Origin: Ectocarpus siliculosus
Lineage: Eukaryota; Sar; Phaeophyceae; Ectocarpales; Ectocarpaceae
Reading direction: 5' to 3'
Assembly (NCBI GenBank): GCA_000310025.1
Contig: FN649733.1
Location: 2,718,915 to 2,748,510, forward strand
Length of the DNA stretch: 29,596 nucleotides
Made by a program: the position numbers and the translations under genes. Under the pieces are notes generated by a model, which saw only the letters and a program-made list of their open reading frames with translations, searched no databases and had not been told where the DNA came from. Shown here in pieces: positions 6,801-29,596 of the stretch. How positions within the stretch are numbered: the first letter of the stretch is position 1; each line of letters opens with the position of its first letter.

Positions 6801-7027
6801 GCCCCCAGGCACCGGTGCGCACCCGACGGGGATGCACCCACCGAGGACATTCCTCTTGAGAAGCATAATTTGGCCCTCCGGGCATGCCTGCTGCAGGGCA
6901 TTACACCTTGCGGTGTGGACAAGGTCGATCATGTGGGACATGATCTTGTCGTCCGCCGGCAACGCTGAAGCTGATGGGGCTGCCAATGCAGCCAAGAGTA
7001 CAATGAAAAAGCCCTGAGGGAACCCAT
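855..7027 (-). CDS. Secreted cysteine-rich protein with duplicated Cys domain (4-exon model, broken frame)
   Basis: Exons on the minus strand: 7027-6783, 2653-2525, 1936-1510 and 1055-855, all junctions phase 0, about 333 residues. Exon 1 starts with a clear signal peptide (MGSLRAFF, a hydrophobic core, then APSASA) if one T is restored in the run near 7008-7012. Mature residues 42-70 carry C-x6-CPEG, LLKR and GGC-x4-C. Exon 3 repeats this pattern: C-x6-CPEG, LLVKRK, GGC-x4-C. Exons 2-4 are otherwise helical and charged. Exon 3 also carries one surplus base near 1873-1885 (minus strand GAAGACCGCGACC) and an in-frame TAG at 1782-1780. Correcting the surplus base gives the phase needed for exon 4. 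The breaks may be sequencing errors or real decay. The family is not recognised; an extracellular or vacuolar role is inferred from the signal peptide only. Joining exon 1 to the rest across a 4.1-kb intron rests on matching phase and the shared Cys pattern; they could be two neighbouring paralogues. Confidence 0.5.
1510..1936 (-). pseudogene. Exon 3 of the cysteine-rich gene, with frame break and in-frame stop
   Basis: The exon opens after a CCACCTGCCAG acceptor. The first part reads GRKLNRRDIARILKQETED; the frame then shifts by one base and continues as SINALAVLINETDSNGYIG, which is clearly protein-like. The TAG at 1782-1780 falls in the palindrome CTAGGGTTCGAACCCT. Beyond it the same frame stays open through the second Cys domain to 1471, past the proposed donor at 1509. 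Both breaks lie in one exon while the flanking exons are intact, so either base-call error or early pseudogenisation would explain it. The tail (about residues 225-265 of the model) is low-complexity, rich in G, A, T, E and D. Confidence 0.45.
3745..4065 (-). pseudogene. Possible copia-type reverse transcriptase relic
   Basis: The minus strand is open across KVTVVVYADI followed by a KL..K..M pattern. This recalls the beta-hairpin VVVYVDDI and the downstream KxxM segment of Ty1/copia reverse transcriptases, with the second catalytic Asp lost. Only about 30 residues look related and no other domain (gag, integrase, RNase H) or LTR was seen. It lies inside the long first intron of the cysteine-rich gene. 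Chance resemblance is quite possible. Confidence 0.2.
4845..5076 (+). repeat. Repeat R2, intact copy
   Basis: This is a unit of about 230 bp beginning TGTTTTCTGAA and ending in an A-rich stretch (GAAAGAAAACAA). It is nearly identical to a second copy at 5589-5679 plus 6313-6450. The A-rich end suggests a retroposed element. No open reading frame of note is present, and I could not find a convincing target duplication around this copy. Confidence 0.85.
5589..6450 (+). repeat. Repeat R2, second copy, split by an insertion
   Basis: The left half (5589-5679) and right half (6313-6450) together match the intact copy at 4845-5076. Between them lies foreign sequence, 5680-6306. The six bases ATTCGG occur once at this point in the intact copy but on both sides of the foreign sequence here (5674-5679 and 6307-6312), which is the mark of a target-site duplication. 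Confidence 0.85.
5680..6306 (+). mobile_element. CAA-tailed retroposon (family R3) inserted in repeat R2
   Basis: The insert is 627 bp, starts CCCCCCAGTAGTGATG, contains a strongly pyrimidine-rich tract (about 5815-5955), and ends GAAGACAATAACAACAAC with a short (AAC)n tail. It is flanked by the duplicated hexamer ATTCGG. An ordered tail and a target duplication fit a non-LTR retroposon. The stretch before the tail (GAAGGTACTG, GAGAGA, GAACGGTTT, TGAAGACAA) recurs on the minus strand at 26945-27005, so this is a dispersed family. No transposase or reverse transcriptase is encoded, so it would be non-autonomous. Confidence 0.75.
6451..6782. other. Remaining intron sequence of the cysteine-rich gene
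   Basis: It holds a run of A at 6467-6480 and a fairly open minus-strand frame (6492-6758) without recognisable motifs or good splice borders. I treat it as intron. Confidence 0.35.
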
Positions 7028-9699
7028 GTCTGGTGCCAAGTGGTTTGACCTGTCGCTACAGCAGCAGATCTATCCCTGTTGCCTCCGAAGAGCCACAAGC
7101 AAGGTCGGAGGTGTGCCGTGGATTGCGCGGGCAGCGGGGGGTTCGTCGGCTGCGGGTTGGGAGGGGGGCGCGGAATTTGTTTCTCCGAAGAGTTACAGGT
7201 TATACCGAAGTTTGGGGCGGTTCAGGCTTCAGTGGCCTTTCGGATGAGTCAAGGACTTGAAAACGGACTCAACTAGCCCGCAGCCAGCAGGTCTCACTGC
7301 GTCCTCGTTGCAAAGACGCTAGCACATCCCCTCAGAGAGTTTACCCAGGGTGGGTCGAGTCTCTCTGTGATGGTGTGTCGGCCCGGTGAAAGGGCGTGTA
7401 ACCGTCAACCGTCAAATGCCTGGACGCAGTAGCTAAACGCTAACGTAGGAGGCAGTTCTGTAGGAGGAACTCGAGGCCGTGGTCACACAGAAGGATTCCT
7501 TCCCCTGAGCCCCCCTGTCAACCCCTCCTGCGGTGCTTGCCTTCGATTTTTGACGCGAGAAGAGTGCAGCACTCTCTCCCTGAGAGTGTATACACCACAG
7601 ATAAGTAGATGTTGGACAGGAACGGAAACGAGAGACAAAAACTCACTTTGAATAAAAGACCGCTTTCGCCGGGGTTCGAACCCCTTGCCCTGGTCGTTAC
7701 GGGAGAATGTTGCGAGGATACCAATTAGACTACAGGGATGCATAGGGCAATTTGGAAAGTCTTACGCATACACTACGATATACTTTTTACTTGACAAGGT
7801 GAGCGACAAGTCCTTGCCATCTGGCCACCGAACTGCTCGTAAATCGGTGGCGTGGTAATTCTGAGACACGAGCAAACAAAAACAAAGGACAACCTGACTA
7901 CCGCTATGCACACCAAGACACATCAACCTCTCGCCAAACCAACATGCCAACTCCTCCCCAGGTCCCGTCCAGCTCTGTCTGTCTCCGAAGCAGAATTGCT
8001 CGAAAGACAAGGTCGACTGGTGGAACACGCCGCAGCCCAGCAAAGATCAAACGAAGCACACTTGCAAAAAAATAAGCTCGTCAACATCGTCGACTTTGAT
8101 GAGAACAGAAACCAACGAATCAAAGAACTAAGAAATATACTTCATAAATTACACGTACACATCTCGTCGGTGTTATTAGTTGTACCGGGGCATGCTGCGC
8201 ACGGTGATCGTACTCGAAGACCCCAAGATCTTGGCATGGACCCAACTGTCATGCGCCCGCAAGTCGCAGCGTTGGACAATCCTATCCAACAATACTCGAG
8301 ACACACACAACACCCCGTAGTTTCGCCCGTTGCCTCGAAGAATATGCAAGAGAAACATAGGTATTTCACAGAGGTCACACCGATGTCATTACTGTACCAC
8401 CACATCAACAAAATTTGGACAACAATCGTCTTTCCTCCACTCACTTCCACACTGCCTAGCCCTCTAACTCATCCATCTGGGTTCGGATGAACTGTCAAGG
8501 ATCCTTACCGCCCCCCGTCTCCCTGACACCACAGAAAGCTTTCCCTCCCAATTACCCTTCCCCTCACCCCACATCTCAACGTCACATTCCTGTACCTAGC
8601 TCTACACGGTTGGCAAAACCAAACATGGTCATGTGCAAAGCAGTTGCACCGCACAGACCGCACAGCAGAGCACAGCAAGTAGGCAGTATTCCACAATCGC
8701 GGCGGTGTTGCAGAAATCACAACGCTTAAAGGTGCTGCATTGTGCGTACAGCAGTACACTCGAACATCTCAAAACCCTTGACCACACGGTGCACGGTATG
8801 AGTAAACACCGCGGGCACTGTCCACTAACCGAGCCTCACGGGAACGTTCCGAAATCCCGCGGGATCGTCCAATACAGCACTTGCAGCAACCCCTCGTCTC
8901 TGAGGAACTGCCCGGCCCACACGCGAAGCATGGCTGTCGAAACCCCGGGGATGCTTTCCCCTGCCCTGCCGTTCTTGTTGTTCGTGCGGTGATGTACCAT
9001 AAAGTCTTCAAAATGGGTCGCAGGGAAAACCTGCACGTACAATACCCATTAGTAGTCAGTCGCGAGAAGAGAGGGGGTTCCGGCCGAGGGGGGGAAGGGG
9101 GGGGGGGGGTTACACTATTGGTGGCGTTTCTTGATTGGCGGTGAGTGCGACCGGAGTAGTGTCAGCATTGGAAGGGTAAGTCTACCACAGTGGTTGCATG
9201 AGCCTCGCGCAAGGGTTGCACACAGCCTTAGCCTCGGACTGACGTCAGGAGGGCGGCATGGTCAACAGCGGGTGAGGGCGGCGATAATTTACTGACTAGA
9301 CTAGACCCCAAGCCGAATAATCACGTCGAAACGCCACACGGTCAAAGGACCGTGGACGTCTACAGCCAGAAAATGCCGGTGGCTCAGCAGCAACGCAGGT
9401 GACGTAGTTCGGTGAGAGGGGGGTGGGGGGGCGGGGGCTTGCTGTTGGACAGTTCCAATCAGAAGGAGGAAAGATACCGACCCATACGATCACGCAGGGC
9501 CAGACGATCGATCCAGCTCTTGCAAGCACACGATACTTCGCGTACTGATTCACATCGAATACACTGATGCCACTGAAACAAATTAGTTGCACGGAAAAAT
9601 GCCGGTCGCTGAAGGCGAAAACCGTTCGTGCACGTGCACCATGCAACGGCTGTACCGGAATAAGGTCGACGCGCGCAAGAAAACAGCACGCGCCGCTGG
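7028..9699. other. Intergenic region between two minus-strand genes
   Basis: This is the 5' flank of the cysteine-rich gene and the 3' flank of the glycosyltransferase-like gene. A plus-strand frame open from 7852 to 8490 (212 codons) contains a short charged stretch that could form a coiled coil (about 7980-8130), but it lacks recognisable motifs and strong splice signals, so I do not call it a gene. Runs of G occur at 9088-9110 and 9417-9432. A tRNA-like sequence lies at 7668-7740. Confidence 0.35.
7668..7740 (-). pseudogene. Degenerate tRNA-like sequence (tRNA pseudogene or SINE head)
   Basis: On the minus strand there is an A-box-like TAGTCTAATTGGTATC and, 37 bases on, a canonical T-loop/B-box GGGGTTCGAACCCC. 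The loop CTCCCGT between partly paired ATT and AAC would give anticodon CCC (Gly). The acceptor arms do not pair and the D stem is poor, so it is not a functional tRNA gene. It could be the internal polymerase III promoter of a tRNA-derived SINE. Confidence 0.35.
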
Positions 9700-10247
9700 T
9701 TAAACAAACGGTTGCTGCGTACCTGCAAAAAATACACCGCCGGAAGGCATTGTGTCGTGCGGCAAGAACGATCGAGGATTGTCATGCAACAGCTGGCGCT
9801 GTTCATCGGTTCCTTCATTCACGAATGGACGGGGATTAGGGTACAGCACCTTTATAAAACCGCACTCCGGAAGGAACATCTGTATGCTGCCGCTGTGCAT
9901 CTCTGGTATGCCGTTCGCGGAAGATTCGTCGAATTCCAGGTAGTTGCACGCCTGGTTCGCCGCCATCTTTTTCAGCTGCTCTCTGGTCGCCATCCACATG
10001 CCCTGTAATGATGTTTGGCCACGCCGGGTCGTTACGAGTCATGATCGGACGATGCACGCACTGATGGGATTCTTACATACTCCAAGGAGAGAGGGAGCGA
10101 GAGGGGCGAGGAAGGGCAGTGGGGGAAGGGAGAGGTAGAGAAAAAAGGCAGCAAAAGAACAACCACAAGCAACAACGACAAGAGCCATCATCCCAACCTG
10201 TCATTGCCATCAACAGCAAAAATAGCAACACCACCACCACTACCACC

Positions 10248-10285
<38 letters not shown>

Positions 10286-13200
10286 CGCAAGCATTACATA
10301 GCTCGCATATCGTAAACGCGCCCCCCCTCTTGATCCTTGTCCAGGGGTACAGTACCACACCTGGTTGTTGCCCGCTCTAGGCAGCACCTTGGACGGACTG
10401 AGGGACATGTAAGTGCCCGCTCCGTAAATCTTGATCGGGTTCAACCTGGTTTGTCGTAGCACATGCTTCAGTTGCCGTTTCAGGCGTTGCTTCTTCAAGG
10501 TGGTCGTTGTTTGGAGCCATCCCAAGACCGAAGAGGTCCATGGAATATATGCGTACAAAAAAAAATCAAGAAATCATATCATGAGACGAGCTTTCTGCAA
10601 GACTGGGTCGGTCAAGCTGGTTGGTTGGTGGTGGTGATGTTGGTACTGTCGCTGTTTCCTTTGGGAGGTGGTGGTGATAGTGCCGTGTTCGCCCAATCAT
10701 CCACGAACTCGGGAAGGGGCGAGTTTCCATGCCACAGACGAGCCGACAAAATATTGGCTAATATGAAAAACAAAAACGGTCAAGAGAAAAACGTTCAAAT
10801 GCGGAGGCACTTCCTCTTCCTGTACGGCCGGTTGGTTCTAAGTGACCACCAATATTAGACGTACGGGGCCGAACATCTAGCGTAGGATACTGACGAGAAC
10901 AATGAGCCCATTCGCCGTCCCAACAACAACAACTATTCCCTGGTTGCTGGAGAGGGGGGAGGGGGGTGATTGGCAAACAACCTTCTTACTCTAAAGGGTC
11001 TCCTACTCGAGCCACCCATCCGTCCCCAACTACAAGAGCAATCGGTGGCCCCTTGCTGGGGTGGGCGGGCGTTTGCTTGGCACCAATTGGCACGCACAAA
11101 AACTCGCCTGCTTAACACGATCTCCCACTCGAACCACTCCCCCTCCCACTTGTCCTTCTCCTTGTCCTTCGTCCCCCCGGGCTCGACCCTCAAAAACCCC
11201 GGCACGAACACGTTCGGCCTACCACGAGACCCGCCCATTCCCCTGCACAAAGGGGGAGGGGAACAAAACGCCAGCGTTGGGAGGGGTGGGGGGAGGGGAC
11301 AGGCGAGAGCTCCCTGCTGTGCCATACCGCATGGTCTTTGATGTCACTGCTGCAACTATCTGTCCGCGGAAGGTAGTCCCTACACACAACTATGGGCCAC
11401 GCCCTTTGAAGTTTTTGTGCCGGTTCCTTTCTGCGCGAATCACTCCTTCCACCCTATCCCGAAGGACAGGGGGGCCGGCAGCACCCATGTCCGCACCCCT
11501 TGTACCATATAGAAACGCGGCCAGACACCTCAGGGCCGCAACCAAAGGCCACATTTTCTCGGTGCGGGATGCGCACTGACCGACCAATCACCAGCTGTCA
11601 CTGCGTGGAGAAACTTGGGACTTTGATGCCCGGGAACGACACATGCTATGGTTGGAAAGTGAAGCTCCTTGATACCAACGCTTACGCCCTTCCCACGTTG
11701 ATCACTCAAAATATTGAAACTATCGACTAACAACCGCTTTCGCACAGCTTGTGTGAACCGTCACCGATTCTACCGCCCCTGTTCCGATTAGTCGATCTCA
11801 GAAGTCAGCGTGTCTACGGGGGACTATTGATACTGCTGCTGTCGACGCAACCACCTCATCGCAACTACACCTTCTCTCACAATCTTTTTTCCAGGTTATC
11901 GCATTCCTCGCGGTACAGCAGGATGTGGTTGAGGGTAACGATCATGTCGTCCTCCACCTGCGACCGAAGAAACACATCAGGTACGGACGCGCGGCCCTCC
12001 GGGTCAGGAGTGTGGGTGACGGGCCTGGCCGTGAGGGGGTGAAACGAAACCAATTCCACCGAAGAGGGAGGAAGACGTGACGAGATATGTGTACCCTTGC
12101 TACCGAACTCATTTTCTTTGTTCAATGTTCAAACGAGGATGGTTCTGTTGTCTCACCCCCCGCCCGGCGGCGGGGCACAAGACGACGACAACGAAGAAGA
12201 AGACGAAGGGTGCCGAGAAGGGGGAAGGGGAATGAGATGGGCACTGGTTTGTTTCCGTCTAAACATGGAAAAGAATGGGCAGGCAAAGCTGATTCATCAG
12301 AAAACACACACACACACACACACACAGGAAATACCATGCAGTCATGTGTTGGGGACGGTGCTTGCGAAATGCCTCGCACATTTAGTGTAAGCAAAATACT
12401 TCAAGGGAGTGAAGGCGGTGGTGAGGAAGCAGTCCCCGCACTCTTAAGATAATGCTCACAAATCCACTCTGCTGTCGCTCCATGGGCGAAGCACACTTCC
12501 TCATGCTGCTTCCGTACAACCTGACGGACAACTGCAGGATATCCACCACCGCAATGTGCTCTATAAACGCAAACGCAAGTACGTCCCATCGGGCTCAAAA
12601 CGTCTTGTGGTCCTCACGTTTCACACATCGACGTGCGTGGAACGCCTCTCGCCGACTTACCTGCATGAAAACGTCGAAGTCTTCCACCCTTGGCTTCATG
12701 TAGATGCGATGCTGAACAGACAAGAAGACAAGACCAAAGGGGGATGCAAAAATCAGCTAAAGCGCGCAACAAATAAATACGCTCTTACGCGTACTCCTCC
12801 GTGTCTCAGCTGCCAAGTACCACTTTCCAAAATTAAATGCTGAGCGGATGAAGCCGGAGGCGGGACCGGCGACGGGCTGTTTTTGGGTAAAAACTTCGAT
12901 ACTCTGAAACCCTGAAACAACAGATCGAGCGGGTGTTATCTCGCGACAGAAGCCTGCCGTTGTGGTGGCAGATGAAAACCAACAACAACCAGCAAAAACG
13001 ATCAGACCTCGGCGATGCCGGGACAGCGGTGGATCGAACGAGAACCTTCACACCAAAAATTCGGCAAGGAGAGAGGTATGTATGTAAGTGGACCCAATTC
13101 AACAGGTAGGTATGATCGATGACACCGCAGGAGACACCCGGAGCGTGTTTGTTGGCGTCGATGCGAAAAGAAGCTACTTCCCTATTCCTGGCCGACGGTT

Positions 13201-16106
13201 TCAAACCGCCTACGCCGTGCATGGCAGTACTTGTAGGTGTCCGGTTGTTGGGGCGGTATAACTATTTAGTATTACGGACGAGAATTTTGAAACTATCCTT
13301 CAGATCAATGTACTCACGTCTGAGGCATAAAAAACATAATGCGGTGCCCCCCCTCCGTATGGCCGACTCATTTTCTGTCGGTTTCTCACTTCTCATGTCC
13401 GACTACATACCTCTGCAAGACAACAAGCATCCCCCCCCCCTTCCCACCGCGGATACAACGTCGTCGGTCACCTTGATCGCCAGGTTGTTCCGGACGGAGG
13501 GAGGGTGTTCCTCGGAAGAGTAAGGGACGAGTTCGCCGGTCCTCTGGCAGAAGAGGCGGTCTCGAATCAGGTCGGCGACCTCAGAGGTGTCCCAGGCGGC
13601 GATCAAGTGGACATGGGGTGAGAATCCCCCCTGTTTTGGTCGTGATGCAGGGGGGGGGGGTGTACTCATAGTCGTGCATGCCGTAGTCGTTAGACCATTG
13701 ACCTCGCATCCCTACAAAGCCGGGACGGAGCACGCCGGGTTCTCACCGGACCAGGCTCTCACATCACCAAGCGCGAAGCGCCGTGAGGTATTCGGCGAGT
13801 CGCATGAAGGGTGAGCTGCATCCTGCTAAGGGTATTCGGCATCTTGTGCTTACTTCCTTGCGTACGGATGACAGCTGCGTATGACTTCATTTATTTTCTG
13901 GTGCTTTCACTTCCAGAGACAGTTGTAAGCACTGTGTAACTGCCTCGAGGATGCTTGACCATTTATGCAGGGGGGGGGGGTAACAAGCGTGACGGGGTGC
14001 AGAAAGAAACGGCCGGGGGTTGAGAAGAAACACGCGCGCGACGGGGTGTGCGTGGTGTCTCATGCCTTTTGTATACAAGATAGGAGGGAACACGGAAAAG
14101 AAGGCGCAGCACACACAAAAATAGTGATGCCTTGCTATCGAACGGCGTGTACCCGTACCCGCCTCCTTAATCATCTATCTGCCTGTCGAGCTTCTCTGAC
14201 TTGTCCTTGTGTGCCAAGGGCCATGCCCAGCTCCTGCCTACACTTCTGTCATGTTCGAAGAAATGTCCTTGATCTAACCAGACCACCACGGCCAAGACGC
14301 CAGAAAAAAACATCCCCCGAACTTGTTCCGGGAAACAAAGAAAATCTGCTCCCGTTATGTACGCCATACGAAGACCTCGCGCACCTCGCAGGCCTCCTTC
14401 ATCTCGTCCATCATCATGAGGATGTAGTCCAGCTTGTCCACCTTGCCGTCGTAGCCTAGCCCCAGCCTCTTCCGTCGGTCGTACGACGAGATCACGTACA
14501 GGATGCGCCCCGACTCGCCCCCCGTCGCCCCTGCTGCTTCCTCTGGCCCCTTACCGTAGGACCACTTGTAAACGAGCTCTCTCCTCCGCGTCGGCTCGAT
14601 CGGGGGGACGTAAGTCCCGCGCCAAAGCTCCGCCCCGCGTTTCAATCGCCAGGCGCGCTCCGTCGCCGCCACTGACGACTGCTGTGCCCGCTCCTCCCCG
14701 GCGCCTGCCGTTCTCCTCTTCGTCGTGGTCCTTCGGGGTGTCCGTGCTGCTCGGTCGTCTTCGCGGAGCCCCCCGCTCGCCGACCTCGTCGAGTCGGCCT
14801 CCGAAACGGCTGCCCGTTTCTTCTTCCCCTCCGGCGGGAGAGTCGCCGCTTCTGTCGGCGCCGTTTGCGCCCCCTCCCCGCCCGCCTCGGGCGCCGCCCC
14901 CTGTCGCTTCAGACCCCTCCTCAAGCGTGGTCGCCTTGTTCCCGTCTCTGCACCGCCGCCAGCCGCGGTAGCGGTGGCAGAGGCGGCAACGACAGCGCGG
15001 GAAAAAAACACCTCGGCGTCACCCCTACCCTCCAGCCCCCGCCCCCCCGCGGAGGCCGGGGCTTCGCCTACCCTCGTCGAACCCTCGGAGTCCACAGCCA
15101 CGGGGCTCCCTCCCTCGCCCTCTCCTGCTTCGCCCGCCACTCCTGCTTCTTCGGTTACACCGTCCGTCTTGCCCTGGGCTGCGTTGGCGTCCCCTATTCC
15201 CCCCTCGACACGGCCACCACTACGTGTGTCTACGCTGGCTACCCCTTCGCTGGACCGCATCTCTTCCGCCCGTTGCAGGAGCCACGCTTGGTGCCCGCGC
15301 TGAATTTTGCCGTAGTGCGGCGAGCGCCAGCCACTGTCGTCTCGAACACCCGCCCAGCCGACTGTGAGAGGTGGCGTTCATGCATCCGGTTTGGTAAGTT
15401 TAAGTCTTGTCGTACTTATTTGTTAGTGAGCTACTTCAGCATATTGGCTTGTTAAACAAGATGCGGAGTAACACTACCCGAATTCCGCGCGTAATTTAGT
15501 ATGGCCTGTTCATTCACCGCAAACGCCCCGTTTGACTGTTGCGAAACGTTTGGGGAATGCAATCGTCCATGTCTGTCGACGTTTTTCGTTCCAGTTTCGG
15601 CTTATTTCGAAATGGAACAAATTATTGAACGTGGTTTTATAGCACGAATCCGAGGGCCAAACACACGTTATTTCGTTATTTCTGCATGGGCCATTGACAG
15701 CACAGCCGGACCTCTAGCTGAAATCACCGATCCAGGGTGCAATCCAAGCGTGCATGCGCTGTGCTACGGAGGAGTGTCCCACCCCTTCCTGTTCCCATAT
15801 TTCCCTAGTGCGGGCCCCCCGCGCAGTTAGTTTCTCACCCTTGGATCGACCCTGGTTCGGTAGCCGCACTCCAGGCCTCAACCCGACCTCGCGTCCCCAC
15901 GATTCCGGCCATGCCTGCCCCGCCTCTCCTCTTCCGCCAACAGCAGCAGCCCGGCTTTCCTGGAGAGGTCGGTGGCCACCGCTGCTGTCTTGGACCATGG
16001 GCAGGAGCGCCCGATTGCGAGGGTTGAGGGCGGTCAGGCCGAGGCCGACCAGCAGCAGCGATGCCGTCGCGGCGACGGCGGCTTGATTCGAACGTCTCCT
16101 CGCCAT
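9700..16106 (-). CDS. Putative type II membrane glycosyltransferase, 696 residues, 8 exons
   Basis: Exons on the minus strand: 16106-15839, 15361-14385, 13630-13472, 12711-12661, 11957-11881, 11242-11119, 10492-10361, 10002-9700; every junction agrees in phase. The start MARRRSNQ is followed by a hydrophobic segment (residues about 9-27) and a luminal stem, the layout of a Golgi type II protein. Residues about 100-320 are low-complexity (A, G, E, T). The catalytic-looking part begins with RILYVISSYDR (a first beta strand) and KVDKLDYILMMMDEM. It continues with HPPSVRNNLAIKHR and then DFDVFMQ joined across an intron to VEDDMIVTLNHILLY. Hydrophobic strand plus EDDM (residues 487-490) is the expected DXD-type metal/nucleotide-sugar site of GT-A enzymes. 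Later segments include VFVPGFLRVE, IKIYGAGTYMSLS and GMWMATREQL. The CAZy family is not recognised and the sugar is unknown. Weakest points are the exon 6 donor (ATC|GTGTTA) and the exon 7 start. Confidence 0.75.
10245..10286. repeat. (CAA)n microsatellite
   Basis: This is an uninterrupted run of CAA/AAC triplets within intron 7 of the glycosyltransferase-like gene. The flanking sequence does not resemble the body of the CAA-tailed elements elsewhere in the window, so it is treated as a simple repeat. It creates spurious poly-Asn and poly-Leu frames. Confidence 0.9.
12304..12326. repeat. (AC)n microsatellite
   Basis: About eleven AC dinucleotides lie in the intron between exons 4 and 5 of the glycosyltransferase-like gene. 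Confidence 0.9.
13645..13980 (-). mobile_element. R1 element, short copy, with 16-bp target duplication
   Basis: The element is 13661-13964 (304 bp). It is flanked on both sides by the same 16 bases, ATGCA followed by eleven G (13645-13660 and 13965-13980), each followed by T. It matches 19323-19626 with about four differences, so it is young. It lies in intron 2 of the glycosyltransferase-like gene, with only 14 bases between the inner target duplication and exon 3. No protein is encoded. Confidence 0.85.
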
Positions 16107-17858
16107 CTTGGAGTCTGGCGGGGGGATGGCGGGGTTGGCCGTCTCTGGTAGTGGGTAACACAAAACCGTGGTTGAAGTAAAAGACTGCGTTGTAAACCCC
16201 TGGAGCAATCCAAAGTGGTGCAGAACTCGCCCGCACTTGAGAACTCAATGGAGTAAAGAAATTGAGCCTCAAGAAAATTCAAATTTAAGACATTGAGCAC
16301 AACTTGTGAGCTAGGTAACAACCCCTGCACTAAAACCTTACCGACCCCTCACATTTACGACAGATGGAACTTCATACCTTTTCTCTGCCTATGGACGTGT
16401 AGCAGATCAACTAGACTAGTTCTCATCGTATGGAAGGAACTACAGTATTCACCACGCTGTGACAACGGAACATTTAATAACAGTTATCCGTTGAGAGGGT
16501 CACCACACACACGCTGCCACAAAACCGTACTAAGTACAAAGCGCACCTCTCCTTCGTGTATGCCGAGAACTGTACCTACAAGATGTTTGTTTTGTACAAT
16601 AGACAAGTTGGTGCCCAAGAGAGATTCGCGAGGAAGGCACGTAAGCCACTCGGGTGAAGAAAATTCCAGCGGCCACGACAGACCGCCGACAAGGCATATA
16701 TTGTTCTTGGAGACAAGTTGGTGCCCAAAGCAAGAGAGATTCGCGAAGAAGGCACGTTAGCCACTCGGGTGAAGACTTTTCCAGCGGCCACGGTAGAACA
16801 AGGCATCATGATGTTGCATGTACACAGAGTGAGAGGGGATAACCCGGCTTGAAAATTGGTGAGGGTATGGAGTTGCAGATAACGATGTTATGCCAGTACA
16901 CCTGTGCACATGCTCACCGATTGCTCCGAACATGCACGTTAGTGACGCGACCCACATGAATGCAGGAGGCAAACCACGCAACACACGGAGGTTACAAGGG
17001 ACAGAGATTGGTGTCGGGGTAAATGCGCAGTCTTGAGTTCAGGAACCAAACCGTCTAGCGGTGTAGCAGTATGCACACCTAAATTATCCAGGACTACTTG
17101 TTGGAGGACCAGCAAGTGCCACCAGTTACTTGGCATTTTCGCATTCTCCAACCCTTAGGTGCCTGACTTCTTTTCCGTCTGCGGAACCTGCTCACAGCGG
17201 ACAAGCAAGAAGTGTCTCAAGACAAAGATGTGCCGCTTGTCTCGAGCGTACGGCAAGCATGGGGCCCACACACACCTACCAGTCTACGCCGCCGGGGAAG
17301 CTATCCAACATCCCCTCGCCTCTTCTCCTCTTCCTGTCTTGCTGCAGCCCCTTCTCTCGCCGCTGCGCTCTACGCTCAGCACTAGACGGTCCGCATGCGG
17401 ACCCGCACAGCGAATGGTCGCTTGGCCCCGGGTCTCGGGCTTCCAAAGTCGTCGGATGGTCCGATGCCCCACCGCGAAGTTCTCATTTTTGAATGTGGTT
17501 CTGAAAGCGTGTTGTTCCTTTTCGGCTTGAAACGGCTGAACGACGAAACGACGCCTCGACGAGACCGCCATTTGTACGCTGTCCTTTTTGGCACCATCGT
17601 GGGAATCGTCCGCTACCAAATCACGTAAATTGCCGAGTCTATGGCTCAAGGGAGCGCATACAGTTCTGTGAGACGCAATTGTTGTAAAAACAGAATAGTT
17701 GTTCAGGAACCTGGTCGATTTTTGCACAGCAAGACAGATGCGGAGGAGATAGACGGGTGCTTTGTCGTACTGCAATGATTGCACACCCACGCTGAAAGCT
17801 CGATTGCGTACTAAGAGCAGGGAAAAGAAAATCGGCAACAGACCCGTGCCAAGACAGC
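16107..17858. other. Divergent intergenic region
   Basis: It separates the starts of the minus-strand glycosyltransferase-like gene and the plus-strand membrane-protein gene, so both promoters should lie here. No TATA box stands out. It contains a tandem duplication (16601-16806) and minus-strand fragments that may be a transposase relic (16939-17877). Confidence 0.4.
16601..16806. repeat. Diverged tandem duplication, unit about 100 bp
   Basis: Unit 1 (16601-16710) and unit 2 (16711-16806) both begin AGACAAGTTGGTGCCCAA. They share GAGAGATTCGCG, CCACTCGGGTGAAGA, TTCCAGCGGCCACG and ACAAGGCAT in the same order. A partial third unit may precede them from about 16577. The units differ by small indels, so they are not a coding repeat. 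Confidence 0.85.
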
Positions 17859-17877
17859 ATGCCCGGAAGACGCTCAT
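16939..17877 (-). pseudogene. Possible DDE transposase relic
   Basis: A minus-strand frame of 197 codons (17284-17877) ends with a helix-turn-helix-like stretch NENFAVGHRTIRRLWK, similar in style to the DNA-binding region of Tc1/mariner transposases. Further on the same strand (16939-17151), QQVVLDNLGVHTA recalls the second catalytic Asp motif of that superfamily (QxDNAxxHxA). The parts are not in one frame and no terminal inverted repeats were found. Chance resemblance cannot be excluded, and the frame overlaps the start of the plus-strand gene. Confidence 0.25.
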
Positions 17878-20800
17878 CCGCCGGCCGAGCTCGCGGCGCG
17901 CGCCGACAGAGCGCGTCCCAGATCCAATGGCGCCAAGCGTCCGCGACTCAAGTTGCGGAGACGGGAGGGCTTGAAGTATCGGGGGGCAACGGCTATATCG
18001 ACCCGCTTAAGGCTATCGACAAACTCAAGAAACACGGGAAGGGACTGTGGGGGATGCAGGCTGTCGTCGCGTTTGGAATGTCTGCGATCGCCGTCATTAC
18101 TGGTGAGAGAGAAAAGTATCGCTTGAAGTGCGCTCACGACGGCGCCGTCTTCGCACGGTCAGCGTGCTTTTCTGCCAAGCCAACACAACTTGTGAACCTT
18201 GTGAAGCTGTACTCAAAAAAGTCCCACCTTTTGCGAGTTGTACGTGGTTACATACTGCTGTAGGCACATAAGAAATTAAGTCGGAGATGAGTTTGAAGCT
18301 GTACTTTGCTTTTGGCGCTAATAAGATGGTCGGCACAACTAAAACATGTAGCGAGCTACATACATGTGGTCTAGTCTACACGGCAACATTTCTCGGTCGA
18401 GGCGGTGTTCGTTAGGGGCTTGCTTACTAACCTTGGCAACTGTTAGCGACATCGTTCATGTTTTCAATACAGACGTCAGGTACGGCATCACGTACTGGTA
18501 CACCAACACGGCGGGTGGAGGAAAGCTACGTGAGATGCAGTACGTCTGGGCGTTCTTCAATACCATGTGCGCCATGTGCGGCGTTTGGGTATACCTGCTC
18601 TGGAACGAGGCCGTTGTTGGCGTCCACCGAGATCGAAGAGTTTTCAGACAGAAGGTGATTTTTCCTTACCTTCCATCAAGCTTGGAAATGCGTTTTCGTT
18701 TTCATTCTCATGCTACGAAATACTTCTATCCAAACACCAGGCTATGCATATAGTCTAAGAACGCATAGAAAATCCCTCGCGTGTGAAGCTGTCCAAATAT
18801 TTTTACCATTCTAGTTGAGTTATGTAGTTCTTTAGAGTTGCAGTCATCTCGGGGTCATCAAGCAATCATGCGGGGTAAAAGCGTACTCAAGCTTTGCACG
18901 TATCGTGCGTGATCTTGCGAGTAAACGCACTTATCGGAGGTTACGCACCCATCCGAGTAATCGAATGGGATTAGGCAAAGAAGAAGCAAGAACGGCGTGA
19001 TGTATTTCGATTCTACACAGGTATCGGTGTAATCGCACCTAGTCACGCTTAGGGAGTATGAATGCCTGCTACTGCCGCAAGTGGCTGCGTACCACTTTTG
19101 AAGCTATAACGGGTACTCGATAACATTTGCGTTTAGGTTGTGGCCGTGTTTTGTTACGGATCATATACCGTAGATCTTCTGGTACGGCTGGCACCAGTAA
19201 AGTCGCTGTAGTAGTATTCAGAATCGTACCTATGGGGATGATCCCACCAGGATTCCGTGCATTTTCTCACCACTGGGGGGGTGCTCGCCCCCTTCGGGGT
19301 TATGGCACGGGGGGGGGGGGGGTGTACTCATAGTCGTGCATGCCGTAGTCGTTAGACCATTGACCTCGCATCCCTACAAAGCCGGGACGGAGCACGCCGG
19401 GTTCTCACCGGACCAGGCTCTCACATCACCAAGCGCGAAGCGCCGTGAGGTATTTGGCGAGTCGCATGAAGGGTGAGCTGCATCCTGCTAAGGGTGTTCG
19501 GCATCTTGTGCTTACTTCCTTGCGTACGGATGACAGCTGCGTATGACTTAATTTATTTTCTGGTGCTTTCACTTCCAGAGACAGTTGTAAGCACTGTGTA
19601 ACTGCCTCGAGGAAGCTTGACCATTTTAACACAACGTGGTGCGATCATCCCCCTTGCGCGGAGTGAGGGTTCTCGACCCCGCACAACATGATCTACTCGA
19701 CCACCATTATGGTCACCGCCAAAAAAAAAAACGAGGTAAAAAAAAAAACGGTAACCTGGTTGTCGAGTTCACGAAGTGAATTGGCTTGTTTTACAACGTC
19801 GTTGCCAAGCGACGAAAACCCAATCCCGATGGCAAACACCGAGTGGGGGGCTTGTTTTACAACGTCGTTGCCAAGCGACGAAAACCCAAACCCCGATGGC
19901 AAACACCGGGGGGGGCGGCTTGTTTTACAACGTCGTTGCCAAGCGACGAAAACCCAACCCCGATGGCAAACACCGAGGGGGGGGGTTATGGCACGGGGGT
20001 GTGATAAAAAAGACGAAAAACATAAAAATATACATTATTATAAAAACGATCGCACCCGGTTCGTTCACTCGCAATATCCCGGTGTTCTCCCAGAACCAAC
20101 GGCAGACAACAAGCTTGTTTGACCGTTTAGGAAACAGGACAACATATCTATCTGGCAGGTTGTTCGATATAATTATATCGCGAACGAATATCGAACGAGT
20201 TGGTTCGGAGTAAGTTCGGCTTGTTTCTCCAATTCTCAGGGTAATATGCGCTGGAGAACTCTAGCACTGAACTCGAAGAAATAGTTAATATTCCCACAGA
20301 GCACTGTAGTACATGCGAAACGACTTCATTCTTATACCCTATGAGCACGAGCGCAGTGCTTGTGCCGACTTGTTTGGTTAACACGATTCAGAGACACGTC
20401 ATTCAGAAGTACAAGCTGTAGATGACAGCTTGATCCTACAAGTAGGGAGATGACAAAGGCGCGGGTCACTTGATGCTCTCGATCCACGATTGTGTTGAAA
20501 AGGGATGTTGTCGTGTCAAGATGTATTCTCAACCTCTTAGTTAGGGGACACGCAGATAGTCCTGATGTGAGATACTACCTTAGAAGTATACCTTCCTGTC
20601 ATCCCACACCCTACTCTCTATAAAGTACACCAACTACGGTAACAGCGACACTCCATAACAAAGTGCTGTGCTTCATATACAACGCGCAAACCTGACTTCC
20701 GTGGTGACCAATATGTATGTGCTATTTTTGGGAAGAACGTGGATGCATTCCTTTCTTGAAGGCTGGACGTCGCTTGTTGAATCCTAAAACACTAAACCTC

Positions 20801-23800
20801 GTCAATCTGTCGTCGGAGTTCCAACGACATGTCTCCTGCAATTTCTCCCTTTCAGCTAAGCCGACCACGCCGGGTGAACGAAGTGATCGATCCGTCCGCC
20901 ATCATCCGTTTTTGTTGTTTGTGTTGTCCGTCGAAACACCACCCACCCTCCCTCCCCCCATCACTGGATCTCTTCCGTGCACCAAGGTGCACATCTGGAT
21001 GTCATACTTCACGTGGGCCTTCGGGTTATGGACTACGGCGGTTGTGTTCGTGAGCTTCCAAACTTACTCTTTCTCCGGTGAGCACACAAGGACGTACTGT
21101 AGTGATAAGGGTGCTCGCAGGCCGCAGCTATTGGCTTCTTCTGATGTATCGGTCGGGGATACAACATTTACTGCGATACCACACACACACACAGCTCACG
21201 TCTCTCGACTCATGTTTCCAGGCTGAGCGAGGGCCTTTTGCATCGTATGATCTGTTGTGTACATCTTACTAGTACGAGCAACAGGAGCCAACTGGCGTGC
21301 TCTGTTGTGTATTGTTCACAGGCACGCGCAACAGGAACCAACTTCCCCAGCAGCTTGCCTTCGCTGTTGATCAAACAGAACGCTGTTGCACGTGGTCAGC
21401 CCGAGGTCAAGATGCATTTCTTCGACCGCCTACGGACAAGTTGGTGTTCGGCCCCATTGTACTTTACGGTGCCGGTGATACTGCCAATACTCGTGTCCAC
21501 GTTCAACCCAGCCTTGTCCCCTTCCCGCCACGCAGAACAAAACACGGTCCCAACAAACGCCACACCGTGTCAGAACCAACATCCTCCGTCCCCTGAATGC
21601 ATCGATTTTATCTCACTCTCCCACCGCACTACTCCTTTACCCCACCCCTTTGTCGTTCTCACTACAAGCCAACTACCCGACGGATCTCACTTGCGCCTTC
21701 TTTGGAGCCGTGCTGTGCTGCGCGTTGTCCGACGTGTGGGCGCTGGGAAAGCTCTGCTCGCTAGGGACGTACGCGGCAAGACTCGAAGAAGAGTGGCGGC
21801 TTGCCCCTCACGAACCGACGGCGCCTCTTGCCATGGCCGATCCACTGCAAGAACTGTGAGCCCGCACCTGTTGAAGGGGGAAGGATGTGTCAGGGATGTT
21901 CGTCGTCACGTCGTCGCTTGCCTCCGTCACGTGGCGGCGTTCCTGATACTTTTGCTTGCGAACACGGGAACAGGGCGGAGTGAGGGAGCGTACGTTTCTT
22001 CCCTCGGCTTGTCTTTTCGACAAATCCCTGCTTCTTCGCCAAGAAACGCCGTCCAAATCCCTGTCGGAGAGAGGGCAGGCGACTAACACCCTTACCAACT
22101 CAACAGTGTGCGATCTCTTACGTAGCCCGCTATTCTTATAAACTCGTTGCTCCAAGAGCCATCTTGCTGATAAATTTGTGGTCTACATATACGGTACAAC
22201 TGACACGGATTGGCGGAAATGTGATGTGCTTGCAGTGAAGAAGCAACGCCAGATATGGACGAGAGGGGCTACAGGAAAATAGAGCGAGAGAGGAGGAGGA
22301 GCAGCCTAGCCAAGGCGAAAGAGCGAAGAAAATCTAAGGCCGGTGAGTTTGGGAAGGCCACTGAGGCACATGCACAAAGAGGAAGGAATGGAGATACTAG
22401 AGAGAGACGCACTCACGGAGAACGAGAGGCAAGGAGAGAGACACGTACATACGATCAAAGAGAGAAACGGTGGGGAGGACCACGGGAGACAGGGAGAACA
22501 GCAAGTGGCGCGAAGCCTGCAGTACATAGCCAAAGAGTAGAGAGATTCTAACAAGAAATGAAACATCGAAAGACGGTGTGTCTCCCTCGACGAGCGGGCT
22601 CAATGTCGCCTACCTCCCAAGCATAACGCGCCTCGAAAGACTTGCGGCGTGGAAAAAGAACGCGGTCTTTGGGTAGGCCCTCGGGCGGTGAAACCACACG
22701 TGTGTGTGTTGCATATCACAAGTGTGTATCTGCATTTCCTGAACGTACGGACCTTGGGAGGCTTCTGCTCCCCGAACTAGGCCGTTGGCGGTGAATGTCG
22801 ACATAGAGGAAAGAGAACGGGGACGCAAGAAAAGAACGCTGTTCCGTCCCGACCAAGAAGGGGTAGTCTTTCTGTGTGTTTATTTACTTTTCCTAAGATA
22901 ACCTGATGAAGTTATCGTTGGATACGCTCATAGGTTGAAGGGCGGGCTCCATCGCTCCCGTTTGTCTAGGGGGGAGAAAACTGGATGTGTTCAGATCCAG
23001 CTGGCTTGCAGTAGCAGACATGCGGGTTGTGGTAGGTTACCTCGGTGTCCTGCGTGGTATCGAGGTTCAATGAGGTCTGCTTCCCTCTGTCCTTATTGAT
23101 TTGTGACATGCAAAATCTCGCGCTTACTTAAGAGAGAAGAGCGAGCGGCGGCGAAGGGGTCATGCCGGAACAGCGGGCGGTACCAGGGCAGGACGACCCT
23201 GAGTTCGGGTGAGATTGATCTCAGGGAAAGGTTTACTCCATTTTCTGGACTATTGCAATTGCCGTTCAGCCGAGCGAACAGCTTGTGCTTGTCGTTCGTC
23301 GTAAGGCAGATGCAAAGCTACAGATGTAGTCAAGGATTCGTCTAGGACTTATCGGGCAAGATACTTTGCCCAGCTGCCCCCCGTCAACAAACAAAGACTT
23401 TCTCGGAGGTTTTTGGTACTTGGTAAGTCTGGGAGTGAATCAAGTATTCACAGACATTCACGAAAATAGGGACCGGCTTGGATTCTGTTTTGGGAAGCTG
23501 GTGCACTCGCTAGAAATCAATCCGATATCTCGGATCCGCAGTCACAGTTGTACGCCTCCCTTTCGGCTCCGACCGCCTCACTACATCTCCAGTTCTTTGG
23601 CCCCTTCAATGACTCCTTGTGCTCATGAAAGCCCTCAAATTTGTCGACAAACGCCAAGATAAGGGCATGCTTGTTTGTGTGTAAAGGATGGGCTCTCGAC
23701 TAATCCATGCCCAGAACACTGCAACGCAGGTAGCAAGGAGGCCTTCTCCGCCCTCCCCCCCTCTCACACACACAGTAGTCCGAGATCAGCGTCAGAGGCT

Positions 23801-25280
23801 ACGCGAGCGCGTGGGCACATGCTCCGGTATAACGCACTCATTTTGGGCGGCTCTGTCCCCTCGATTGGACAGCAGTAGGTCAGGGATGCACGATCATATC
23901 CGGTACGAGTCACGCTTACGCCCGTCCGCTCGTCCATCTCGCACGCTCTTAACTATGCTTCTTGTTCCACGCCTAGCCTACAACAAGCTGTTCCCGGAGC
24001 GTCGTTTGGCTTTGGTGAGTGATGCAATATGATGTAGCCCAAACCTGATTGTCGATGCCACTTGCCGAGCTGATCGTGACACGATGGCAGCGATGGAAGG
24101 TACAACGACACCCAAAATATCCGTATTTTGCGTCGTACTGAACAACACGTCCTCCCTCTATAACTACGAACACACATGGTGGTGTCACAACCGGTATGAT
24201 AAGTCGTGAGGGAGAGGGCGAGGCGCTAGGATCGGACTCCCTCAAGGGTTCCAAATTTTCTCGGCAGTCGCAGTTGTTTGCAGCGGCTTCTCGGACGGAA
24301 CCTATGGTCCATAGGGTACAGATTCAATGCTTGTCATTTGCCACGATAGTTCCGATGTCCTTGCGGCGAGAGGGAACTTTCTTGGGGCCGTGCCTCAAAC
24401 GAGCCTTCATAGCAGAAGCTAGGTAAAGGGGGTGACGTGAAAAATGCACAGCTTGCACATGGCACCTTCCGTCCTAGGCATCCGTGGGCGGGGGCAAAGC
24501 GTAGCCACGTCACCCACGTACGGTTCTGTCTCGAACGCACAACGCCCCTGTGCCAAGCTCTTGTCTACGATAATTTCACGTTGACAACGAAGATCACCCC
24601 ACTGTTCTAGCAGAAAAAGGAGAAATGAGCTCACATGGTCTGCTGAAACTATGGCGTGCTTTTCCCTCGTTCCAACGTCCCTCAACCTCACAACAGCCGT
24701 GAGCGAGGACGAAGTAATGATGCCGCACGCGTTCGAGCGACTGTGGGGCGCGTTCGAGCCCCAGGGCGAGTTCCAAACCCACATCACGCAATCGGTACCA
24801 CAGACGACGGTGGTTCGCCACCTCAACGACAGGGGTTTCCAGGTACACGTGATGAGCTTGTCTCTCCAACTCTCTCTCGACGATGGGTCACGGTCGTCTG
24901 TTTGTATCTGTTGTTCCCGGTGCAGTATATAGAGCGTGGTATACAGGCCAGAAGGCTCATCGCGGCGACAAAGAGGGTGGGCTCTGTAACCCGTTAAGAA
25001 TCCGGATTCTCGGTCGGCCACCAATTTGGCACGGATGCCATTGGTTGACGTTCTTACGCAGGTGGTGGCAGCGGGCACGGTGGACGGGTTGATGCGAGTC
25101 CTATTCTGCGCGAAAGAAGCCACCTCCAACGGAACCGGCGCCTGGTTCCTGGCCGAGCTGCTGCAGGATGAGTCAGCCCTGACTCTGGAAGCCACCTTCA
25201 AGAGCAAGCGCCCCGCGGTCGTGCCCGGCTTCGTTCGTGCCTTCATGCTCCACCACGTCTTCACGATGGCCGCCGCGTGA
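17859..25280 (+). CDS. Four-TM protein with C-terminal adaptin-appendage-like domain, 528 residues, 12 exons
   Basis: Exons: 17859-18102, 18416-18654, 20987-21077, 21669-21855, 22236-22342, 23133-23208, 23374-23422, 23687-23729, 23977-24014, 24268-24422, 24704-24842, 25062-25280. All eleven junctions agree in phase and most borders are good GT..AG sites. A basic, soluble N-terminus (1-60) is followed by hydrophobic segments at about 63-90, 125-143, 166-185 and 198-217. TM1 spans intron 1. A highly charged stretch follows (EEATPDMDERG, IERERRRSSLAKAKERRKSK), then DFLGGFWYLDG, NPCPEHCNAAYNKLFPERR and a C-terminal domain. Residues 410-528 resemble the platform subdomain of the beta-adaptin appendage: SEDEVMM...AFERLW, then WFLAEL 59 residues after that Trp, then a Pro-Ala-Val 17 residues later, spacing close to that of animal beta2-adaptin. 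The exon 11 acceptor is a GAG rather than a CAG and was chosen by phase. The membrane half is secure; whether the last three exons belong to the same gene is less so. No known family fits the whole. Confidence 0.65.
19296..20000 (-). mobile_element. R1 element, long copy, with 18-bp target duplication
   Basis: The 18 bases GGGGTTATGGCACGGGGG occur at 19296-19313 and again at 19982-19999; the left copy continues in a longer G run. Between them lie the 304-bp R1 sequence (19323-19626) and about 355 further bases absent from the short copy, including three 67-bp tandem repeats. Read on the minus strand, both R1 copies share the 3' end (ending CTATGAGTACA next to C runs) and this copy reaches further 5'. 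That is the pattern of 5'-truncated non-LTR retroposons. No reverse transcriptase is present. It lies in intron 2 of the four-TM gene. Confidence 0.75.
19783..19983. repeat. Three tandem repeats of about 67 bp
   Basis: Units begin GGCTTGTTTTACAACGTCG at 19783, 19849 and 19917. Each continues through CCAAGCGACGAAAACCC, CCGATGGCAAACACCG and a short G run of varying length. The units are contiguous with no unique spacers, so this is a minisatellite in the 5' part of the long R1 copy, not a CRISPR array. Confidence 0.9.
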
Positions 25281-26256
25281 CAACTGTTCCTTTCTTGATA
25301 GCTTATCTTGCGTGTTTTGGAACCGCTCAACGTCCGACTCCGTTCGAAATACGTAACCCATCCCCATTTGTTATTTCACGCGTTTTTCGTGCGTGAGGGA
25401 GAGCGGGACAGAGTCAGCGAAACTGGTGCTGCAACGGATGACGCCTGGTACACCTCTTGCTTGTTCGAAAACGCAGGTAGTCTGTATACCATGTCTAGAC
25501 AAGTTTCATCTAGACACTGACTTCGGTGTGAGCCCTGGTTGGCCTTGATCCTACTTCAGCACTGCTAATACAGTGAACTGTTTCTGGTAGTTTGGGTGTT
25601 CTGTTCGTAGTAATCCGTTTGGGCCACCTCCTCGATCTCACGCGTTGGTTCGGCTTTATGAGGCATGTGTGCCATGCGACTTCGCAATGTTAAGGGCTAA
25701 TGGTCGGGCTATTTCTCTCTCCAAAGAACAAATTGGACAGCAGTAGTGGTTGTACAAGAACTGGGGAATGTGACAGTCTTCACTTTGGACGAATTTCAAA
25801 AGAGCTCTTTTAGGAAACATGTGGACGTTGTCACAAGAAAACACCAGATGGTGCGACCATAGTACCCAGCATGAACGGCCGAAATTGTCTCGGCTCACAC
25901 GAGTACTTGGACCAGTGGAGCGAAGGAGGAAGAGGGTAGTGGGGAATACGATTGACTCTGCTTGTGACGGTATAGGACTTACATATAGTCACTGTGTGGT
26001 TGCAGCACGACCTCCGAGGTTCAGGTTTCGCGTAGTTCGCCAGTTCTCGGCAGATCTGTTTTTTGGGAGTTGACGATAATGGGGACGATTCGTCCTACGT
26101 CGCTTCGCAATACTTTTTCTTTAGACGGCCATACCGCGACGTCGGGCTCATAAGGCGGTAGAGGGTTGCTGCTCGTGGTAGGGATGTGGAGACTGTTTGT
26201 TGCACGAACTTTGTGGAGGGAAACAGAAAAAAGCCTCTTTGGGGTTAAAGACAAAT
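25281..26256. other. Intergenic stretch downstream of the four-TM gene
   Basis: I see no exon with both convincing borders and recognisable protein. Upstream exons of the TRAPPC2L-like gene should lie here if it is intact, but I could not identify them. Confidence 0.35.
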
Positions 26257-26332
26257 AATGTATATAGAAGCGGAGGAGAGAAAGCTATACATTGGTCTTA
26301 TTTGCTACGAAGAAGACTTGTATGCATACGGA
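26257..26332 (+). CDS. Exon resembling TRAPPC2L (TRAPP complex sedlin-like subunit)
   Basis: After the acceptor ATAATGTATATAG the exon reads EERKLYIGLICYEEDLYAYG. This matches the TRAPPC2L pattern R-x-LY-x-GL...ED...YG-x-VT closely. TRAPPC2L is a small (about 140 residue) longin-fold subunit of the TRAPP tethering complexes acting in ER-Golgi and Golgi traffic. The frame continues VTEADRLAASRL beyond a possible donor at GGAACG|GTAACC, so the right border is uncertain. Neither the N-terminal part nor the C-terminal exon was found nearby. It may be one exon of a gene with long introns, or an isolated fragment. Confidence 0.5.
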
Positions 26333-26564
26333 ACGGTAACCGAAGCCGATCGACTGGCGGCAAGTCGACTACATACTTCGCAGTCTCCCCGTGCATGTTG
26401 TCCTTTGAACGCGGGCCAATCACCTCCGCCACGCCATCGTGGAGGGTCCCCATCAGCTACATACAGTAGTACGCTAAACTAACTGTTGTTTGTTGTCGCT
26501 CCCCCATCATCAGGTTCCCTTTGTAGTTCTTCATCTTTTCGTAGTAAGTGGAGAAACCAAGTGG

Positions 26565-28430: not shown

Positions 28431-28598
28431 ATGGCGGAGCTCGCATCCTGCACGATCTACATCAAGGGGATTGCCACGACGGCCACGGAGGCGGACGTTC
28501 GCGACGCGTGCTCACAGTACGGGAACATCACGGACGTGGCTATCCCGGAGGGCAAAGATTTTTGCTTCGTGGAATTCGCGGAGGAAGCGCAGGCACAG
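28431..28598 (+). CDS. RNA-binding protein, first exon with RRM domain (partial)
   Basis: The exon starts at ATG 28431 in a good context (CCAACCATGGCG) and ends at the donor GCACAG|GTGAAG, phase 0, giving 56 residues. It contains RNP2 as IYIKGI (about residues 9-14), the helix ATEADVRDACSQYG, a strand ITDVAIPEG and RNP1 as DFCFVEF (about 44-50). This is the first three-quarters of an RRM; the second helix and last strand must come from the next exon. A frame near 28935-28975 reading NLNGINFGNK could be that next exon (compare the loop NxxGxxFxGR), but its acceptor is unclear. Subfamily (cyclophilin-E-like, eIF-like or other) cannot be decided from one exon. Confidence 0.85.
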
Positions 28599-29160
28599 GT
28601 GAAGAGAGGGGGATATTAAAAACAGCTGCTTGTCAGAACATCGGCTGAGTCTCCGCGCGTGAGGCGCACAAGCAACGAGGACCTACGCCACTGGCTCGCA
28701 TTGCATTTGCACCGTGACGCAGTCCTGCTAGCGCACCAACCGCCCTGCCCTTGTCGTGCGTGACGATCTTGTGTTCTCTGTTGCAGAAAAATGGTCGCAA
28801 AAAAAAAGTCGTCGCTTTTTTTTTGTGTGCTCTTTGCCCCTCCTCTCCTCTCTCTCTCTCAGAGAGTCCGTGTTCGGTAGATTTGTTCCTTGATAGACCG
28901 CAAGATTTCGCGCCATCTTGCTGTACCCAACAAACAAACCTGAACGGCATCAACTTTGGGAACAAGTCGCCATGTCTCGCCGTATTGCGGGACTCCATCC
29001 TTCCGACCTAATCGCGCCCAAGCTCTCGCCTGACGCTTCGATTGGCTTCCTTGCTCGTTTTTTTTTTTTTCGGCACTTTCTTTCCGCACTCCCTTGCCTC
29101 CCCCGTTCTCGCTCGCGGTTTGGTTGGTTGTTGTCGGTGCACGACAGCACAGCTTATCTA
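28599..29160 (+). other. Intron and unresolved downstream part of the RRM gene
   Basis: It begins with the donor GTGAAG. Possible acceptors are at 28786 (CTCTGTTGCAG) and later. Homopolymer A and T runs at 28795-28825 and 29058-29070 hinder reading. No exon is called with confidence. Confidence 0.35.
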
Positions 29161-29596
29161 TACCCCCCCCCCCCCAAACCCCCCTGGGTTTGCTTTTTGA
29201 AAGGGGGGGGGTGAAAAAGGGGGGTTTAATGGGGGGGGGGGAAATGTTAAGGGGGAAAAAAAGAAAAGGGGGGGGGGAAGGAGAAAGGGGGGTAAGGGGG
29301 TGGAGGGGAATAAAAAAAGGGGAGTTAATTGTTTTTTTTTGGGGGGGGTTTTTTTTTTTTTTTTAGGAAAGGTGTGTAAAAAATTAGGGGGAAAAATTTA
29401 AGGGGAGGGGGTTGTATTTTAAAAGGGGGTGGGGGGGGGGGAATATATTTTGGGTGTTGTTGTGAAAAAAGGGGGAAGATTTTAAAAAGGGTTTTTTTTT
29501 TTTTGGGGAAGAAAAAAAAGAAAAAGAAGGATTTTTTGATTAAAAAATTTTTTTTGAAAGGGGGAGTAGGAGGGGAAAGGAAGGGGTAATTTTTTT
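29161..29596. other. Low-quality terminal sequence
   Basis: From about 29161 the sequence is almost only runs of C, then G, A and T, with nearly no C on the given strand after 29190. This composition is unlike the rest of the window and typical of a degraded read tail or contig end. Frames found here should be ignored. Confidence 0.75.

Follow-up and report, generated by a model that had tools for sequence, protein, structure and literature searches.

A divergent beta-adaptin platform domain without an adaptor trunk in Ectocarpus siliculosus, and its possible fusion to a four-span membrane protein

Adaptin ears are familiar from soluble adaptors, of the adaptor protein (AP) and GGA types, and the locus described here raises the question of whether such an ear can be built into a membrane protein. 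The locus lies in a stretch of 29,596 nucleotides of Ectocarpus siliculosus (assembly GCA_000310025.1, contig FN649733.1, positions 2,718,915 to 2,748,510 of the forward strand), which we refer to as the window and within which all coordinates below are given. An earlier reading made from the letters alone (the sequence-only reading) had joined twelve exons into a single 528-residue frame, with four membrane segments in its first half and a domain resembling the platform of the beta-adaptin appendage at its end. The window is eukaryotic in character, as is evident from its introns. In the analysis reported here the platform domain proves to be real, and our leading model, to which we give a probability of roughly 0.4, is that of one gene in which this domain is fused to the C-terminus of a four-span protein. 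A beta platform free of a trunk, more so one in a membrane protein, would, if true, show that the ear can serve on its own as a reusable recruitment hub, and a platform built into a membrane would provide a natural counterpart to, and test of, engineered anchored appendages.

The domain is encoded by two exons:

24697..24842, + strand: first platform exon, the start of which is profile position 1 of PF09066; codon score 13.8 bits
25062..25280, + strand: last exon, encoding the rest of the platform domain, with stop codon TGA at 25278-25280; codon score 43.7 bits

Together these exons encode a platform domain of the beta-adaptin type that is real but divergent. Searched with hmmscan, the joined translation matches Pfam family PF09066 (B2-adapt-app_C) with an expectation value (E) of 7.5e-19 and a score of 68.2 bits, above the gathering cut-off of 22.6 bits for this family, with residues 3-111 aligned to profile positions 1-109 of 112, and extension by 13 upstream residues gives an E of 1e-18. 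The result is independent of the splice, because the unspliced raw frame of 17001-26500, with stops read as X, also matches (E 7.2e-11). The profile search thus bears out the sequence-only reading on this domain, and the residue spacings on which that reading was built recur in the MAFFT alignment, with 59 residues between two tryptophans (56 in human beta2) and 17 from WFLAEL/WILAEL to the proline in both proteins. Pairwise BLASTP with human beta2, using a segment identical to PDB chain 1e42_A, gives 25/100 identical residues (E 1e-5, valid for a single comparison). As a single-sequence query against PDB sequences the domain did not retrieve an AP chain even at a threshold of E 10, on which grounds we call it divergent; the only match obtained (E 1) is to an unrelated protein and was rejected. 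The Pfam profile and the direct beta2 comparison are the only two lines of evidence that show its kinship. A contiguous read-through of the platform, with the intron left in, reached a mean predicted local distance difference test score of 34.9 in single-sequence AlphaFold2, too low to be of use. Antisense to the platform exons runs a 318-residue open frame (24419-25375, - strand), which is probably a by-product of the strong bias of these exons towards GC at third codon positions (GC3).

Judged by the features that can be tested on the letters, the predicted protein is a member of the B2-adapt-app_C family and not an AP beta subunit. Pfam scans of the three + strand frames of 1-28900, at thresholds of E 1 for 17000-26500 and 0.05 elsewhere, gave no match to the Adaptin_N trunk (PF01602) and none to the appendage sandwich (PF02883), although a sandwich divided among short exons could escape such a scan. 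Since the same scans did detect split or partial domains (B2-adapt-app_C unspliced, and RRM_1 at 4.1e-8), a conserved trunk of 500 residues should have surfaced, unless it is contained in very short exons. A tblastn search with a beta2 appendage sequence likewise found no sandwich next to the platform exons, in what is a weak test, the platform itself reaching only E 7.5 and chance matches ranking above the platform exon. On the - strand, Pfam scanning covered 2050-21990 only and gave no significant match. Within the window these results support the earlier statement that this is not an ordinary AP beta gene. They also bear on the alternative that the platform exons are the tail of an AP-1/2 beta gene or of a truncated duplicate, placed here by rearrangement or misassembly and either devoid of a function of their own or part of an ordinary AP beta. 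We consider this less likely than the fusion: neither trunk nor hinge nor sandwich was matched on the + strand up to 28900, even though the domain does belong to an AP beta family and its codon bias (43.7 and 13.8 bits) is as strong as a housekeeping gene might have. With human beta2 as the reference, the window domain scores 68.2 bits on the PF09066 model against 134.3, and this half-as-strong match suggests a divergent paralogue. A misjoin is conceivable, since the contig has a low-complexity end and holds dispersed copies of a 300-base repeat, 99% identical, at 13650 and 19312, but none of the listed repeats of at least 60 bases falls within 22343-24697.

The ligand pocket, read off the MAFFT alignment with beta2 numbered such that VFYF starts at 813, appears partly kept, in that its aromatic centre is preserved and its charged and aliphatic rim is not. 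Identical to beta2 are F837, W841, E849 and E902, the last of which we take to be a pocket residue; conservative changes are I876 to V and Y888 to F, and the other changes are R834 to P, L838 to E, R879 to G, E847 to Q and R904 to L. In beta2 the DFLR motif is contacted by R834, F837, L838, W841, I876, R879 and Y888, according to the accessible text of PMC6939906, and two of these seven contacts are identical in the window domain, two conservative and three changed. Because the aromatic centre is kept while the rim differs, the domain is predicted to be a docking site with an altered preference, more likely so than a faithful copy of beta2.

Upstream of exon 24697 only one other + strand gene candidate was modelled, a probable four-span gene with the following exons (donor boundaries marked by a slash):

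17859..18102, + strand: exon 1, with ATG, basic N-terminus and most of the first transmembrane segment; donor G/GTGAGA; codon score 2.3 bits
18416..18654, + strand: exon 2, with the end of the first transmembrane segment, loop 1, the second transmembrane segment and basic loop 2; acceptor TTAG, donor AAG/GTGATT; codon score -1.6 bits
20987..21077, + strand: exon 3, with the third transmembrane segment; pyrimidine-rich tract, AAG acceptor; codon score 12.4 bits
21669..21855, + strand: exon 4, with the fourth transmembrane segment and the start of the cytosolic tail; AAG acceptor, donor ACT/GTGAGC; codon score 1.3 bits

Exons 1-4 join in phase, and their four hydrophobic segments have 19-residue means of 2.27, 1.61, 1.26 and 1.79. 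When unrelated open reading frame pieces were joined as a null, at least four such segments arose in 59/2000 cases and a third-position GC excess as high in 3/2000. Phase and null make the four membrane segments of the sequence-only reading plausible, while the leave-one-out codon score, from a model with a training set of six exons only, backs exon 3 alone among the four. Counts of K+R over D+E are 12/4 for the N-terminus, 3/3 for loop 1, 5/1 for loop 2 and 0/1 for loop 3; since these loop charges fit, we infer a topology with both termini inside, by which the platform would be cytosolic if it is linked. Against Pfam at E up to 10, the four-span protein matched DUF3980 alone, at 0.25 and under the cut-off of that family, and against NCBIfam it matched nothing at E up to 1. 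A MARVEL-like family was considered from topology only, and the protein matched neither a MARVEL profile nor that of any other family. Its sole PDB-sequence match (E 1.3) is at chance level and was rejected. Intron 2 of this gene holds one copy (19312-19611) of a dispersed repeat of 300 bases, of which the other copy, at 99% identity, lies at 13650-13949 and a 63-base part, at 100% identity, at the window start (1-63). Two repeat probes, one of them a 32-base piece of this repeat, matched nothing in viral contigs. Within intron 2, 19783-19987 consists of three tandem copies of a unit of about 68 bases ending in long G runs.

Whether the two halves are spliced together depends on what lies between them:

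22236..22342, + strand: exon 5 (uncertain), a charged low-complexity tail; GC3 0.60, codon score -1.2 bits, poor pyrimidine tract
22343..24696, + strand: stretch between the halves, to be read as a single intron of 2354 bases, as several introns interrupted by short exons, or as intergenic
24651..24653, + strand: alternative start ATG sharing the frame of the platform exon, in context GAAACTATGG; codon score of 24651-24696 -3.8 bits

Exon 24697 is preceded by a pyrimidine-rich tract and AG, exactly at the start of the Pfam domain, and because these coincide it looks like an internal exon in need of a 5' partner. Exon 5 leaves one base and so splices in phase straight onto it. The shortest model that results has seven exons, encodes 410 residues and contains introns measuring 313, 2332, 591, 380, 2354 and 219 bases, and the implied intron of 2354 bases is similar in length to intron 2 of the four-span gene (2332 bases). 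This model is simpler than the twelve-exon, 528-residue frame, which our analysis did not confirm. From exon 5 to exon 24697 the real sequence allows 211 in-frame chains with between 0 and 6 internal exons, fewer than in the median dinucleotide shuffle (11,012); since shuffled sequences give in-frame chains too, matching phase carries no weight, with the proviso that the shuffle test covers stops inside exons and not codons across junctions. Neither of the exons proposed earlier with ends near 24345 and 24355 has a positive codon score (-8.6 bits for 24268-24315 and -1.6 bits for 24355-24422). The best candidate exon in 22343-24696 is 23140-23208 with its variants, which scores up to 11.4 bits with acceptors AAG or GAG; its score is above the best of four comparison stretches (1.2, 9.7, 8.5 and 5.8) and below that of a fifth (15.7), and in view of this better stretch and of its acceptors we leave it, as no more than a possible exon, out of the model. 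A membrane-anchored version of the ear, as proposed before, is possible, but the phase is uninformative and the linking exons lack convincing codon support.

Several observations weigh against the one-gene fusion. Chains with internal exons occurred in 100/100 dinucleotide shuffles, and a chain of five internal exons in 99/100, and the phase agreement between exon 5 and exon 24697 is expected by chance one time in three. The codon score of exon 5 (-1.2 bits) lends it no support, AAG acceptors are needed for exon 3 as well as for exon 4, and without use of its donor exon 4 reads into an in-frame TGA (21857-21859). GC3 is 173/253 codons in the four-span half and 100/121 in the platform half (P 0.004). 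To these come the three of seven DFLR contacts that are changed (R834, L838 and R879), and the finding of no relative with the same architecture, in collections not meant for eukaryotes.

The TGA right after exon 4 and the GC3 difference also count in favour of two separate genes, as does the weak codon support for anything between the halves. The four-span protein would then end at TGA 21857-21859, in exon 5 or in its extension, and a short, soluble, near-stand-alone platform gene would begin at, or upstream of, ATG 24651, the one ATG in a platform exon frame that is open back to 24585. We regard this arrangement as somewhat doubtful, given that 24651-24696, with its codon score of -3.8 bits, resembles a pyrimidine tract before an acceptor and that the Pfam domain starts at the exon start and not at this ATG. 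A precedent for an ear on an unrelated soluble protein does exist in Toxoplasma, in KAE, the K13-complex (micropore) alpha-ear protein of this and other myzozoans as described in the accessible text of PMC10105704. According to the same text, KAE keeps an ear binding to Eps15 that was lost by AP-2 alpha.

Returning to the one-gene fusion, its product would be a membrane protein of four spans, cytosolic at both ends and with a beta-adaptin platform at the C-terminus, probably encoded by seven exons, of which exon 5 would be joined to the first platform exon across 2354 bases; the splice between the halves, the topology and the docking function are what we infer. Accessory proteins of trafficking would be bound in the platform pocket through short peptide motifs and gathered at the membrane that houses the four-span part, and this would happen without an AP complex. 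Because the 410-residue model has no clathrin box (L[LIVMF]x[LIVMF][DE]) and no sandwich, accessory proteins rather than clathrin itself would be expected to be recruited. That Ectocarpus has such a natural four-span protein, whose own cytosolic beta-ear docking module would bring together coat-formation accessory proteins in the absence of an AP complex, we put forward tentatively.

Among the closest known systems, the AP-2/AP-1 beta appendage (PF09066; PDB 1e42, 2g30, 2iv8) shares the whole platform, from the ED..M...F...W start to W[FI]LAEL and P-x-V, while the window domain differs in being 25/100 identical and in that neither a trunk or hinge nor a clathrin box or sandwich could be found with it. 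The beta ear of AP-4 (PDB 2mj7) is a platform without sandwich as well, but in AP-4 a trunk is present. A two-row profile of the window domain and human beta2 matched AP-4 beta only at E 0.0045, with beta2 and beta1 scoring far higher, a ranking that does not classify the window domain, as the profile contains beta2. Like the proposed fusion, KAE carries an adaptin ear at the C-terminus of an otherwise non-AP-like protein; unlike it, KAE has an alpha ear with a sandwich that binds WxxF, and coiled coils, and the accessible text describes no membrane spans (PMC10105704), whereas the window holds a beta platform alone. KAE is the nearest known case of an ear on a foreign carrier, and it shows that ears can part from AP trunks. 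A membrane-anchored beta2 hinge-appendage, in turn, suffices to start coated vesicles in mammalian cells, and in the accessible account this depended on the clathrin box and on Tyr815 of the sandwich, the platform mutation Y888V having no measurable effect (PMC8488560); anchored hooks also collected epsin-2 (PMC9337851, accessible text). Such engineered 'hot-wiring' resembles the fusion in having a beta appendage on a membrane anchor and not on an AP core, and differs in being artificial and drug-induced and in including hinge and sandwich, as far as the accessible parts of both reports describe it (PMC8488560, PMC9337851). The 'fixed docking site' suggested by the sequence-only reading should therefore be taken with reserve, as only the platform is present: the clathrin box and the sandwich with Tyr815 are absent from the 410-residue model, and anchored beta2 was reported to be indifferent to Y888V (PMC8488560). 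None of the papers listed by our literature searches describes a natural membrane-anchored ear, which is thin evidence of absence from print.

Relatives were sought in viral and genome contigs, both collections being those not meant for eukaryotes, so that a negative outcome there carries little weight. In the viral contigs, four pattern stretches for the platform domain and two for the four-span protein contained no relative, and in the genome contigs 109 stretches yielded one tblastn match to the platform domain and no credible relative. This match lies in a Rhodococcus contig and was rejected as chance, being bacterial and because the matching open reading frame looks, by a motif, like that of a phosphopantetheinyl transferase.

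Elsewhere in the window, Rfam and tRNA scans found nothing. A 340-residue open frame at 14355-15377 (- strand) looks protein-like in its C-terminal part; the - strand frames that cover it matched nothing in Pfam at a threshold of E 0.05. The last stretch, 29150-29596, is low-complexity sequence of G and A/T runs and may be a poor-quality contig end. At 28455-28598 (+ strand), a partial RRM_1 domain (E 4.1e-8, profile positions 1-53 of 70) is probably the first exon of a gene for an RNA-binding protein.

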